Positions 17,025-37,667 of a DNA stretch of 64,000 nt are shown piece after piece. Under the pieces are notes generated by a model, which worked only from the letters and a program-made list of their open reading frames with translations, searched no databases and was not told where the DNA came from. The stretch is from Mesohalobacter salilacus (lineage in GTDB: Bacteria > Bacteroidota > Bacteroidia > Flavobacteriales > Flavobacteriaceae), in assembly GCA_003931895.1 (NCBI GenBank), contig RRZV01000013.1, forward strand, positions 1-64,000, in the 5' to 3' direction. Made by a program: the position numbers and the translations under genes. Positions within the stretch are counted from its first letter, which is position 1. Each line of letters starts with the position of its first letter.

Positions 17025-17337
17025 TCTTTTTAGTTTTTAGTTTAAAGTTTAAAAAAGTTTTTAGTTTCTGGTTTTTCCGAATGGCCTTGCTCTCGGAATC
17101 TTCGACTTGTTTGTGGTTTAAATACGTTATTTTTTAAAAAATTAAAGATACAGGATTTTAAAATTTAAAAAGCAAAAAAATGGTCAGCTCCAAAACTATT
17201 TATATTAAATGGAGTTTGTTTATTGCGTGAGGGATAGTAGTGAAAAGCCCACAGCACCACGCCAAGAAGCGTGGTGCGAGGACTTGTAACGGATAGCCCG
17301 ACTCCCGCTTTTTTGCGGGAGGCACGCCCAAATTATT
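17025..17337. other. Intergenic region with low-complexity stretch and a structured GC-rich element
   Basis: No gene is visible. Bases 17030-17085 are a degenerate run built on TTTAGTTT. Bases 17225-17327 hold a GC-rich folded element described separately. No promoter box was found for the downstream dipeptidase gene. Confidence 0.7.
17225..17327. repeat. Structured intergenic element, copy 1
   Basis: GCGTG (17225-17229) closes with CACGC (17323-17327). Inside are a perfect nine-base stem GCACCACGC/GCGTGGTGC (17254-17262, 17269-17277) and a seven-base stem CTCCCGC/GCGGGAG (17302-17308, 17315-17321). The left arm carries AGGGATAGTAG...AGCCC and the right arm GGACTTGTAACGGATAGC, both echoed in the element at 37087-37227. 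It is far richer in G+C than its surroundings. Confidence 0.65.
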
Positions 17338-31813: not shown

Positions 31814-31893
31814 CCGTAGTAACAAATAAAAAAAATAAAGATTCTGAACAAATGCTTCTTAGTTCGCATTTTTCAGAATGACAAAACAGTAAT

Positions 31894-32000
31894 CCTATAA
31901 ACCCATAAATTTATAAATTCATAACCCCATAAACCTCATAAACTCATAAACTCATAAACTCATAAACTTATAACCCCATAAACTTATAAACTCCTAACCT
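31894..32000. repeat. CATAAACT tandem array upstream of the DNA ligase
   Basis: Four exact copies of the 8-base unit CATAAACT occupy 31937-31968, flanked on both sides by degenerate copies such as CCATAAAC and TTATAAAC. The array ends a few bases before the ligase TTG start. Confidence 0.8.
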
Positions 32001-32004
32001 CAAC

Positions 32005-33594
32005 TTGAAAAACTTCGCCCAACTCATACAGCAAATTGACAGCACCAATAAAACCAATAATAAAGTCAAAGCTTTAAAGACTTACTTTGAGCAAGCGGAT
32101 GATAAAGACAAAGTTTGGACCATTGCTATTTTGTCTCACCGCCGACCACCACGACCAGTCAATAGCACACAAATACGAGAATTTGCGGGTGAGCTTTCTA
32201 AAATTCCGGCTTGGTTGTTTGAGGAATCCTATCATATTGTTGGCGATTTGGCAGAAACTATCGCCTTGGTATTACCAAAAAATAAATCCCAAACAGATAA
32301 GCCGCTTCATGCTTATCTTGAAGATATGCTAAAACTCAAATCAAAATCAGATGTGGAGAAAAAAGCTTATCTCTTTAAACATTGGCAAAAACTCAATTAC
32401 TACGAGCGATTTGTCTTTACCAAATTAATGACTGGCGGATTTCGTATTGGTGTAAGTCAAAAGTTAATGACTAGAGCTTTGTCTCAATCTACAGGAATCG
32501 ACCAAGACGTGTTAGCTTATAAACTCATGGGCGATTGGAAACCTCAAAATACCACCTTTCAATCTCTAATTTTAGAAGAAAATCCTGAAGATTATCTATC
32601 AAAACCTTATCCGTTTTATTTAGCTTATGCCGTAGAAGATAAATTAGAAGATTTAGGTCAGCCTGAAGACTTTTTATTTGAGCATAAGTGGGATGGCATC
32701 CGCGCCCAACTCATTTGTCGTCAAGATGAAATCTTTATTTGGTCGCGCGGCGAAGAATTGGTAACCTATAAATATCCAGAATTAGCAGCATTTAAAGACC
32801 ATTTATCTAATGGAACCGTTTTAGATGGCGAAATTTTAGCCTTCCCAAATGAGGATATTGGTGATTTTAAAGACTTACAAAAACGCATTGGGCGGAAAAA
32901 TATCACTAAAGCCTTACTTAAAAAAATACCTGTCATTTTCAAAGCTTACGACATTTTAGAATGGAAAGATGAAGATATTCGTTCTAAACCTTTTTTGAAA
33001 AGACGTAAGGTTTTAGATGAACTTTTTGAAAACTACAAGGAAAAAATAAAACCTTTTCACCTTTCAGAAACTATGCAATTTTCAACCTGGAAAGCTGTAG
33101 AAAAAGAGCGCCAAAAAGCCAGAGACATTCGCTCTGAAGGTCTGATGATAAAACGCGCTGATTCAGCCTACGGCGTCGGTAGAAAAAAAGGCGACTGGTG
33201 GAAATACAAATCAGACCCCTACAGCATAGATGCGGTTTTGACTTATGCGATGCGAGGTCACGGCAGACGTAGCAATTTATTTACAGACTACACTTTTGCA
33301 TTGTGGAATGATGACAAAACGGAGTTGGTTACTTTTGCCAAGGCCTATTCTGGTCTTACCGATAAAGAATTTAAGGAAGTTGACCGCTGGATAAAAAAAC
33401 ACACCACAGAGCGTTTTGGTCCCGTTCGTCAAGTCGAAGCTCAGCACGTGTTTGAAATCGCTTTTGAAGGCATCGCCGAATCCAAACGCCATAAAAGCGG
33501 TGTAGCTACTCGCTTCCCCAGAATTATTCGCTGGAGAAAAGATAAAACAATTGAAGATGCAAATACGTTAAACGATTTAAAATCCCTATTGTAA
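32005..33594 (+). CDS. ATP-dependent DNA ligase
   Basis: 529 residues. N-terminal DNA-binding domain (about 1-200), then the nucleotidyltransferase domain with adenylated lysine K228 in EHKWDGIR, motif III-like DGEILAF, motif IV EGLMIKR and motif V DWWKYK, and a C-terminal OB fold. These ligases work with the associated exonuclease in a repair pathway separate from NAD-dependent LigA. TTG is used as start: no ATG exists near it and MKNFAQLIQQID is a typical N-terminus. The helicase and phosphoesterase often found with this pair are not adjacent. Confidence 0.95.
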   Translation: MKNFAQLIQQIDSTNKTNNKVKALKTYFEQADDKDKVWTIAILSHRRPPRPVNSTQIREFAGELSKIPAWLFEESYHIVGDLAETIALVLPKNKSQTDKPLHAYLEDMLKLKSKSDVEKKAYLFKHWQKLNYYERFVFTKLMTGGFRIGVSQKLMTRALSQSTGIDQDVLAYKLMGDWKPQNTTFQSLILEENPEDYLSKPYPFYLAYAVEDKLEDLGQPEDFLFEHKWDGIRAQLICRQDEIFIWSRGEELVTYKYPELAAFKDHLSNGTVLDGEILAFPNEDIGDFKDLQKRIGRKNITKALLKKIPVIFKAYDILEWKDEDIRSKPFLKRRKVLDELFENYKEKIKPFHLSETMQFSTWKAVEKERQKARDIRSEGLMIKRADSAYGVGRKKGDWWKYKSDPYSIDAVLTYAMRGHGRRSNLFTDYTFALWNDDKTELVTFAKAYSGLTDKEFKEVDRWIKKHTTERFGPVRQVEAQHVFEIAFEGIAESKRHKSGVATRFPRIIRWRKDKTIEDANTLNDLKSLL

Positions 33595-35703: not shown

Positions 35704-36996
35704 CTAAGAATTCATAAGATCTTCAATTTCTTCAATTTCAATCGGAATATTGCGCATGAGATTAAAGGGTTCGCCTTTTTCTTGAATGACAAGATCGTCT
35801 TCTAATCTTACGCCAATGCCTTCTTCGGGAAGGTAAATACCAGGCTCTACAGTAAAAACTTGGTTAGCTTTCATAGGTTCGTGTAATAAGCCATAATCGT
35901 GTGTATCGAGACCGATGTGATGAGATGTGCCATGCATAAAATATTTTTTATACGCTGGCCAATCAGGATCTTCGTTCTGAACATCGGCTTTATCAAGAAG
36001 TTTTAAATCGAGTAATTCTGAAGTCATCATTTTACCAACTTCAACGTGATATTCATCCCAAAGTGTGCCAGGAACAAGTAGTTTTGTGGCTTCTTTTTTA
36101 ACTTTGTTTACAGCGTTATAAATTTGTTTTTGCCGGTCTGTAAACCGTCCTGAAACTGGAATAACGCGCGTCATATCACTACTGTAATTAGCGTATTCTG
36201 CACCGACGTCTAACAATATGGCTTGGCCGTCTTGACATTGGTCTTTGTTTTCTATATAGTGTAAAACTGTAGCATTTTTACCACTGGCAACAATTGGTGT
36301 GTAAGCAAAACCTTTAGATCGGTTGCTTAGAAATTCGTGCATAATTTCTGCTTCAAGTTCAAATTCCCAAACACCGGGTTTAGTATATTTTAAAATTCTT
36401 CTGAACGCTTTTTCGGTAATGTTACAGGCTTGCTGCATGGTATCTAATTCTAATTGGTGCTTAACAGAACGTAGGCGTTGTAAAATCGGGTTACTCTTAG
36501 CGACTTGATGTGCAGGATAATTTTCTTTAAGCCATGTGTTAAAACGGTCTTCGCGTGTTTTGGTATCGTGATTGGCACGATAATGCTCGTTGGTATTGAT
36601 GTAAACGGTATCGGTTTGCGACATGAGTTCGTGAAAGATTTTATGAAAATCTTTTAACCAATAGACAGTTTTGATTCCTGAAGTTTCAAAAGCTTTGTCT
36701 TTATCTAATTTTTCGCCTTCCCACACGGCAATATGGGGGTTGGTTTCTTTAAGGAATAAAATTTCTTTGTGTTTGTCTTTTGGGGCGTCTGGAAATAACA
36801 CTAAAATACTCTCTTCTTGGTCAACGCCACTGAGGTAGTAAATGTTTCTATCCTGTTGAAATGGAATGGTGCTGTCTGCTCCAATAGGGTAAATATCATT
36901 GGAATTGAAAACCGCTAAGGCATTAGGTTTCATTTCTGATGAAAAGTTTTTGCGATTTTCTATGAATAGTTGTTTGTCTATGGGTTGATATCTCAT
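35704..36996 (-). CDS. Xaa-Pro aminopeptidase (M24B)
   Basis: 430 residues. N-terminal aminopeptidase P domain (about 1-150) followed by the pita-bread domain with metal ligands in LLDVGAEYANYSSDMTRV (two Asp), HGTSHHIGLDTHD (His), FTVEPGIYLPEEG (Glu) and GVRLEDDL (Glu). It removes N-terminal residues preceding proline, most likely in the cytoplasm since no signal peptide is seen. Confidence 0.95.
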   Translation of the reverse strand: MRYQPIDKQLFIENRKNFSSEMKPNALAVFNSNDIYPIGADSTIPFQQDRNIYYLSGVDQEESILVLFPDAPKDKHKEILFLKETNPHIAVWEGEKLDKDKAFETSGIKTVYWLKDFHKIFHELMSQTDTVYINTNEHYRANHDTKTREDRFNTWLKENYPAHQVAKSNPILQRLRSVKHQLELDTMQQACNITEKAFRRILKYTKPGVWEFELEAEIMHEFLSNRSKGFAYTPIVASGKNATVLHYIENKDQCQDGQAILLDVGAEYANYSSDMTRVIPVSGRFTDRQKQIYNAVNKVKKEATKLLVPGTLWDEYHVEVGKMMTSELLDLKLLDKADVQNEDPDWPAYKKYFMHGTSHHIGLDTHDYGLLHEPMKANQVFTVEPGIYLPEEGIGVRLEDDLVIQEKGEPFNLMRNIPIEIEEIEDLMNS

Positions 36997-37012: not shown

Positions 37013-37020
37013 CAAAAATA
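37013..37020 (-). promoter_or_regulatory. -7 box of the aminopeptidase gene
   Basis: Minus-strand TATTTTTG lies 16 bases before the ATG. Confidence 0.6.
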
Positions 37021-37086
37021 CAAATTTGAAAACGTTTCTATAAGTGTAAATCTTAAAAATTAAAAGTGTATCGGTGATTAGGATTT

Positions 37087-37227
37087 GCGACAGTGGTAGA
37101 AGCGGTAGCCCGTAACATAAGCGGCTTTAACAAAGTCACGACAAAAAAGCGACCGCAGGAAGCTCTTTTTGGAAGTAGACTTTTTAAGCCGGTTATGGCG
37201 GACTATAGCGGATAACACGGCTGTCGC
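37087..37227. repeat. Structured intergenic element, copy 2
   Basis: GCGACAG (37087-37093) pairs with CTGTCGC (37221-37227), closing the whole element. An inner imperfect stem links CATAAGCGGCTTTAA (about 37116-37130) with TTAAGCCGGTTATG (about 37185-37198). Just inside the ends are AGTGGTAGAAG...AGCCC and GGACTATAGCGGATAAC, matching the corresponding boxes at 17230-17250 and 17279-17298. It lies between the divergent aminopeptidase and epimerase genes. Confidence 0.65.
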
Positions 37228-37242
37228 CATAAAAATAATTTA

Positions 37243-37250
37243 TATCTTTG
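37243..37250 (+). promoter_or_regulatory. -7 box of the epimerase gene
   Basis: TATCTTTG ends 12 bases before the ATG at 37263. The structured element ends 15 bases upstream of it, where the -33 element would be expected. Confidence 0.6.
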
Positions 37251-37262
37251 AAATTAAAAAAG

Positions 37263-37667
37263 ATGAGAAAGATTGAGCATTTGGGTATTGCTGTAAAAGA
37301 TATAGATGCGGCAACTAAAACCTACGAGGCTTTGCTCGGGAAATCGGCTTACCAATCTGAAGCTGTTGAAAGTGAAGGTGTTAAAACGGTGTTTTTTAAA
37401 ACCGGAGAAAGTAAAATCGAACTTTTAGGTGCGACACGAGAGGATTCGCCGATTGCAAAATATATCGAAAAACGCGGCGAAGGAATTCATCATATCGCTT
37501 TTGACGTGGCTGATATTGAGGCTGAGATTAAAAGGTTGAAATCCGAAGGGTTTCAACTGATAAGTGACAAACCCAAAGCTGGCGCGGACAACAAGCGTAT
37601 TGCTTTTTTGCATCCTAAGTCGTCGCATGGCGTTTTAGTGGAACTTTGTGAGGAGATAAAACCTTAG
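37263..37667 (+). CDS. mce: Methylmalonyl-CoA epimerase (VOC fold)
   Basis: 134 residues, the family norm. Vicinal-oxygen-chelate fold with metal-binding residues in IEHLGIAVKD (His), GIHHIAFDV (His) and HGVLVEL (Glu). It interconverts (R)- and (S)-methylmalonyl-CoA in propionate/odd-chain metabolism. ATG at 37263 was chosen, as the TTG at 37248 lies in the -7 box. No mutase genes are near. Confidence 0.92.
   Translation: MRKIEHLGIAVKDIDAATKTYEALLGKSAYQSEAVESEGVKTVFFKTGESKIELLGATREDSPIAKYIEKRGEGIHHIAFDVADIEAEIKRLKSEGFQLISDKPKAGADNKRIAFLHPKSSHGVLVELCEEIKP

Follow-up and report, generated by a model that had tools for sequence, protein, structure and literature searches.

An element in the gap between two divergent genes

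In a gap between two divergent genes of Mesohalobacter salilacus, the window (the whole stretch of 64,000 nucleotides analysed here) carries a 141-nt sequence that an initial annotation had described as the second of two structured copies, with the same end boxes as copy 1 and a different middle. The locus raises the question of what such an element is: a mobile repeat, a structure acting on the adjacent genes, an RNA gene, or a site recognized by a protein of the host. The features concerned are as follows.

37087-37227, + strand: whole element (copy 2), a long-form Flavo-1-like rod (match to covariance model R1 at 37081-37236, 57.9 bits, E=2e-11; fold z -6.8)
37087-37093, + strand: 5' arm of the outer closing stem, GCGACAG
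37094-37111, + strand: box 1, TGGTAGAAGCGGTAGCCC (family form GATWGNARYGRNANCC)
37112-37142, + strand: 5' side of the variable arm, with 37171-37199 as its pairing partner
37143-37170, + strand: conserved apical module, AAAAAAGCGACC-gca-GGAAGCTCTTTTT
37171-37199, + strand: 3' side of the variable arm
37200-37220, + strand: box 2, GGACTATAGCGGATAACACGG, its core similar to that of box 1
37221-37227, + strand: 3' arm of the outer closing stem, CTGTCGC
17225-17327, + strand: copy 1, a short-interior member of the family of copy 2 (R1 and RF01705 matches)
35704-36996, - strand: M24/aminopeptidase-P gene, divergent, on one side of the gap
37013-37020, - strand: TATTTTTG, -7 box of the M24 peptidase gene as predicted from sequence
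37243-37250, + strand: TATCTTTG, predicted -7 box of the epimerase gene, the identical word and spacing occurring in genomes G006 and G019
37263-37667, + strand: glyoxalase-family gene downstream of copy 2, probably that of methylmalonyl-CoA epimerase

The proposal that GCGACAG and CTGTCGC form the ends of a 141-nt element in this gap agrees with both the coordinates and the fold. Folded as RNA, the written strand of copy 2 reached -58.0 kcal/mol (z -6.8) and the other strand -50.1 kcal/mol (z -5.5); in each case, none of 200 shuffles folded as well.

Copy 2 belongs to a dispersed family

The covariance model R1 was constructed from 36 long elements taken from other records after redundancy had been removed; none of them carries the label of the source genus, and a few are family-level MAGs without a genus label. 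Of 72 elements, 65 passed the length and box filters, and 36 were left after dropping those at least 80% alike. Within the window, R1 recovered copy 2, matched copy 1 at 17232-17298 (27.6 bits) and produced a third match that, at 18 bits and E=0.03, was taken as chance. Found by this independent model, the sequence at 37087-37227 is a real folded element and not a product of chance.

R1 matches were detected at E<=0.01 in 26 of the 27 genus genomes, with 0 to 32 copies in each. Two complete Flavobacterium chromosomes contained at least 48 and at least 50 copies (E<=0.001), these counts being lower bounds obtained with 150 candidates scored in each. Across the phylum, surveyed with stricter filters and 10 candidates scored per genome, 26 of 296 genomes matched with E<=1e-6, and every one of them belongs to the same class. 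The model is incomplete: in 42 genus loci, it detected 10 of the 21 that had been selected because an element was visible, failed on the other 11, and found nothing in the 21 picked by a loose pattern alone. The 11 missed loci were mostly short forms and members of a second long subtype. This second long-interior subtype, whose conserved sides resemble CTTAGCGAAGTTG and CTTACTGAGACTT, was observed in the genome of the window itself at L007, L078, L082, L084 and L087, all missed by R1.

The similarity of the boxes lies above the chance level against which the initial annotation had proposed to judge it. The box-2 pattern had 31 matches in 15 of the 27 genus genomes and none in a backwards-read control, and R1 matched copy 2 at E=2e-11. 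This similarity is significant because of the relatives and not because of the window alone, where the 17-mer GGACTNTARCGGATARC is weak (two matches at three or fewer mismatches against 0.51 expected, with 11 of 100 shuffles reaching two). Copies 1 and 2 do belong to one dispersed family, as their common end boxes had been taken to indicate, but the 17-mer aligns between them only with a gap, copy 1 having one extra base. The description of the middle as different was correct insofar as interiors differ between members, but the middle of copy 2 carries a recurrent motif, which had 20 matches in 10 of the 27 genus genomes, compared with 0 for its control, and which occurs in a public genome collection in at least 119 stretches. 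Since the long form has a conserved module, AAAAAGCGACC...GGAAGCTCTTTT, the middle of copy 2 is not arbitrary. The interior motif was also observed in one collection record named as a Bdellovibrio MAG (L191, L196). A phage origin was rejected, as a search of viral contigs for the exact motif gave no match; the plasmid search gave a single 32-base match (E=0.5).

Relationship of copy 2 to Flavo-1

Related loci belong to Flavo-1, an RNA motif that Rfam lists as RF01705 (Weinberg et al. 2010, PMC2864571). The Rfam model has 76 positions, which cover the outer part of the long form, and a gathering score of 42 bits. Copy 2 gave no match to RF01705 at the gathering score, at E<=5, or among the listed matches of a genome search; copy 1 matched at 17220-17307 but scored 33.9 bits, short of the 42 required. 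Of 20 long-form (R1-type) loci, however, 11 reached the cut-off, 8 scored 36.0-41.2, and only L308, in the genome of the window itself, had no match. L084 and L087, of the second long subtype, exceeded the cut-off. At E<=0.01, RF01705 matched 25 of the 27 genus genomes; the cut-off was exceeded in 20 of these, and 14 control genomes gave no match.

Copy 2 is thus missed by RF01705, yet R1-type relatives reach the cut-off in 11 of 20 loci, so that it is homologous to Flavo-1 and a non-member by Rfam score. Judged from sequence, copy 2 represents a long form that is related to Flavo-1 but has diverged from it. The two have in common the outer rod of box 1 and box 2, the occurrence in Bacteroidetes and the intergenic position, and long-form members elsewhere reach the cut-off. 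Copy 2 differs in having another closing stem, in a box 2 that ends in AACACGG, and in carrying the apical module, which is absent from the 76 positions of RF01705.

Coupled loops, paired arms and the folded strand

The R1 consensus contains 36 pairs, of which 22 had changed on both sides. Compensated cells numbered 216, compared with 65.0 in shuffles (0 of 500 as high) and no more than 65 in slid-partner controls, counts that are favoured by a structure derived from the same alignment and inflated by related sequences. The variable arms paired better with their own than with a swapped partner in all of 72 long elements from the collection, mostly from Flavobacterium (-22.8 versus -9.5 kcal/mol). 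They form the larger of two sets with 100 motif matches between them, of which 11 without a box, 1 cut and 1 duplicate were removed to leave 72 and 15.

Boxes 1 and 2 have similar cores and are opposed as 3x3 internal loops, the sequences of which are coupled. A strict expression picked out 141 unique elements. In these, GRA was accompanied by a TTG-type partner in 106 of 106 and GRY by an ATA/ACA/AGA-type partner in 35 of 35, with no mixed combination; a looser table contains a few rows that are unreadable either way. Copy 2 has a loop of the GRY kind (GGT with ATA).

Mismatches in the arms were counted on the written strand where they were flanked by Watson-Crick pairs. G.T outnumbered A.C by 37 to 12, 12 to 1 and 22 to 5 in sets that overlap and include related loci, and by 33 to 11 in 81 elements from two Flavobacterium genomes. 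For this last set, 11 of 97 copies lacked a readable box and 5 had too short an interior, and one of 98 matches was off the table. Two results count against a strand-specific fold: the outer stems had 3 G.T and 7 A.C, and fold z-scores were alike on both strands (-3.56 versus -3.48, p=0.53). Six stem pairs differ among the three orthologs of copy 2. Three are G.U gains, one is a change from G.U to C-G, one is an A.G, and one is a G.U against A.A in both sisters; none is an A.C. The excess of G.T over A.C in the written-strand arms points to one folded strand, of RNA or single-stranded DNA. Since G.T outlasts A.C in single-stranded DNA as well, a role as RNA would be one reading of this bias.

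Filled sites, empty sites and differing interiors

The initial annotation had proposed a search for empty sites, and sites with and without the element exist both at the position of copy 2 and at a site in Flavobacterium. Sister species G006 and G019 carry the same element at the copy 2 site. The gene pair is also present in congeners G024 and G021, there without the element. Identity of copy 2 among the three species was 92-94%, compared with 69-79% upstream, 77-86% downstream and 79-88% in neighbouring coding DNA. Identity above that of adjacent coding DNA suggests either selection at the site or gene conversion, and the conservation of copy 2 could be due in part to the latter. A target-site duplication was looked for, but the flanks of the filled and empty sites were too diverged for one to be read.

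The Flavobacterium site was searched in 150 genomes, and the element was present in 12 and absent in 18 of the 30 loci read. In the 12 filled loci, the interior varies (GTGGCGGGGTTCGCCAC versus ATTTTTTTCTTTAAAAAAT) between flanks that are nearly alike by eye, and the box variants switch together with the interior. Copy 1 and its counterpart in G006 have common flanks (81% and 86%) but not common interiors. The view of conserved ends around a variable interior as a mobile or modular layout is therefore upheld as far as interiors differ at orthologous sites, but not in its link to REP-associated tyrosine transposase (RAYT) genes, as judged around 40 of 66 Y1 matches.

A family member lies upstream of a tmRNA flank in 9 of the 27 genus genomes (L059, L061, L062, L065, L085, L118, L120, L123 and L135, in G004, G007, G009, G015, G016, G012, G018, G001 and G011). 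Rfam recognized the tmRNA itself, in sense with the element, in L059, L061 and L062 only; the other six loci share the downstream flank. The tmRNA-adjacent member in G004 has a different interior hairpin.

Interiors were also considered as landing places of other palindromic repeats. This was rejected, since their rate of matching other parts of their own genome (9/31 and 2/14) was not shown to exceed that of controls (5/31 and 2/14). The interiors of L405 and L416 contain a palindrome like that of L525, plain by eye. Local Flavo-1 groups with common flanks occur in G028 at about 965398-968291 and 2455648-2459362 (L414, L424, L430, L433), and three of these places adjoin the repeated end of an Rhs-type protein, named by eye.

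Neighbouring genes and a possible mobilizer

In the main alternative to the reading favoured below, the element would be a non-autonomous hairpin that is mobilized in the form of folded single-stranded DNA, in the manner of REP/HUH/Y1 or attC systems. The conserved loops would be recognition features of an enzyme, and the interior would be free cargo. Consistent with this alternative are the exchangeable middle between conserved ends, orthologous sites both filled and empty, the copy numbers of at least 48 and at least 50 in two genomes, the strand-biased mismatches, and the lack in two genomes of an orientation bias or a fixed promoter word.

The genes around the element argue against it. A search for Y1 transposases gave 66 matches in 29 genomes (61 in the 27 genus genomes and 5 in the two high-copy Flavobacterium genomes), and the surroundings of 40 of these (35/61 and 5/5) were examined in 37 loci. 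No element was found flanking a Y1 match in these loci. The sole R1 match near an examined Y1 gene (21.7 bits, E=0.0084) lies within the transposase match itself, and Flavo-1 occurs without any Y1 match in 3 of the 27 genus genomes. The suggested link to a REP-associated tyrosine transposase is thus not supported by the 40 of 66 matches examined. A box pair with three mismatches at L162 had no R1 match and was left out of the counts. In G028, two weak Y1/RAYT-like genes (L525, L527) lie between the palindromes GACCTGACAGG...CCTGTCAGGTC and GTAGAGACGC...GCGTCTCTAC; because they adjoin these other palindromes, at least these two do not carry the Flavo-1 element. "Atypical secondary structures" beside Bacteroidetes transposases of subclass 2.6 are reported in PMC6006769.

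An all-against-all comparison of 196 neighbouring ORFs identified no common mobilizer gene. The largest clusters spanned three places; by eye, their members were ABC-F-like ATPase genes and a single Rhs-type repeat protein. In addition, copy 2 changed less than neighbouring coding DNA, which would be odd for a spent insertion, and the diverged flanks yielded no target-site duplication. Collectively, and with Y1 transposases as the recombinase family surveyed, we consider a mobile hairpin to be unlikely, although it is the alternative that survives best.

The orientation of the element relative to genes was unbiased in two complete genomes (44/80, p=0.43, and 46/80), as counted in the 80 of 97 copies with both neighbours within 500 nt; 15 had neighbours farther away and 2 lacked a neighbour. 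An early count of 55 versus 22 had looked strong but included many orthologous loci, and an orientation bias was rejected on the two-genome sample. In G028 alone the count was 28/41 (p=0.028). As a check on the replication strand, GC skew in sampled stretches was noisy and followed the gene strand. The lack of bias in two genomes agrees with the remark in PMC9723704 that Flavo-1 matches in F. psychrophilum lie sense or antisense to transcribed regions alike, with many of them outside such regions, an observation that also counts against the model proposed below.

Gene setting of copy 2

The Bacteroidetes -7 consensus is TAnnTTTG. As had been claimed, 15 bases separate the end of copy 2 from the -7-like box TATCTTTG. 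The predicted promoters of both genes lie outside copy 2, and the element should therefore be in neither mRNA. From its position, copy 2 may possibly affect the epimerase promoter, and any effect on this gene would stem from copy 2 adjoining its predicted promoter. Other family members, in L037 (G011) and L039 (G013), also lie upstream of this epimerase gene but point the other way, and they appear to have no connection with copy 2.

A cis-acting DNA or RNA structure, such as an insulator, an mRNA-end stabilizer or a promoter spacer, would act through a strong hairpin alone. The element is intergenic, copy 2 lies between two predicted divergent promoters, and its spacing to the epimerase -7 word is kept in three species, as such a structure would allow. 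However, a plain hairpin need not keep its loop sequences or their coupling, and the layout of neighbouring genes is without bias. The sequence after the element, by eye, is often A-rich rather than T-rich and so is unlike an intrinsic terminator. We regard this explanation as improbable.

The Rfam type of RF01705 is "Gene; sRNA" and the tmRNA-adjacent members in L059, L061 and L062 are in sense with tmRNA, but a small RNA gene is highly improbable given the dozens of copies per genome, their exchangeable interiors, and the lack of TAnnTTTG at a fixed upstream distance in 86 elements (13 sense versus 17 antisense sites within 200 nt).

Comparison with known repeats

Integron attC sites have conserved ends with extrahelical features, a variable terminal stem and strand-specific folding. 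The element resembles them in these conserved ends, variable terminal stem and strand-specific folding, but its boxes are unlike the attC core sites. ERIC and BOX are intergenic repeats of about 100-170 nt found in multiple copies, and ERIC/RU and BOX are structured and modular. RU repeats (PMC2759123) are likewise described as intergenic, present in multiple copies and about 100-170 nt long. These repeats differ in having been described in other phyla, and the likeness of the element to ERIC/RU and BOX is one of description alone. REP/RAYT systems share with the element dispersed intergenic palindromes with conserved features and strand polarity. However, the element measures about 140-160 nt and has several modules, whereas REPs are 21-65 nt long according to PMC3733652 and PMC6006769. 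The element is also not beside the Y1 transposases examined (40 of 66 matches), and GTAG, the foot of REPs, occurs within box 1 of copy 2 but by inspection is not conserved across the family. Elsewhere in the window, an array of tandem units of about 8 nt, CATAAACT-like, occupies positions 31882-32007, and a similar short-unit array occurs at a contig end (L014).

Proposed model

The best explanation as a whole, and one we hold to be somewhat better than even, is that copy 2 is a long-form Flavo-1 relative, a one-strand rod that serves as a protein docking site and occasionally spreads as a non-autonomous repeat. Under this model, an intergenic repeat of about 140-160 nt would fold on one defined strand into a rod made up of the outer closing stem, the box 1/box 2 loops, the variable arm and the conserved apical module. 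The boxes would form purine-rich internal loops two base pairs apart. The folded single strand, most likely RNA within longer or antisense transcripts, would be the docking site of a host protein; this protein would read the loop modules, with the arm as an exchangeable spacer. The family may spread from time to time as a repeat that is not autonomous, and later be kept at some sites. The lack of an orientation bias, together with the lack of a fixed promoter word, favours a folded strand read by a host protein over an sRNA gene. We know of no binding protein for a Flavo-1-like element.

A bolder hypothesis, which we advance as speculative and rather doubtful, denies that Flavo-1 is an sRNA gene and sees in it the outer half of a larger folded module that is strand-specific. 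A host protein or a recombinase would read this module as single-stranded RNA or DNA, and its middle would be exchanged at fixed genomic sites between unchanged ends and flanks. If true, the module would be a recognition site of a new class, modular, single-stranded and widespread in Flavobacteriaceae, and its loop would switch as a unit between two mutually exclusive versions, GRA with TTGNA and GRY with AUA. In the passages on Flavo-1/RF01705 consulted, no description was found of a long form, of coupling between the loops or of exchanged interiors.

No function has been assigned to Flavo-1 since its listing in 2010. The present findings indicate that its usual model covers just the outer part of a longer and more constrained element, that selection acts on the folding of one strand, that loop positions outside canonical pairing vary in concert, and that the middle can be exchanged at fixed sites. 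An "unknown sRNA" thereby becomes a testable question, that of which protein would recognize the loop modules, and whether in RNA or in single-stranded DNA.
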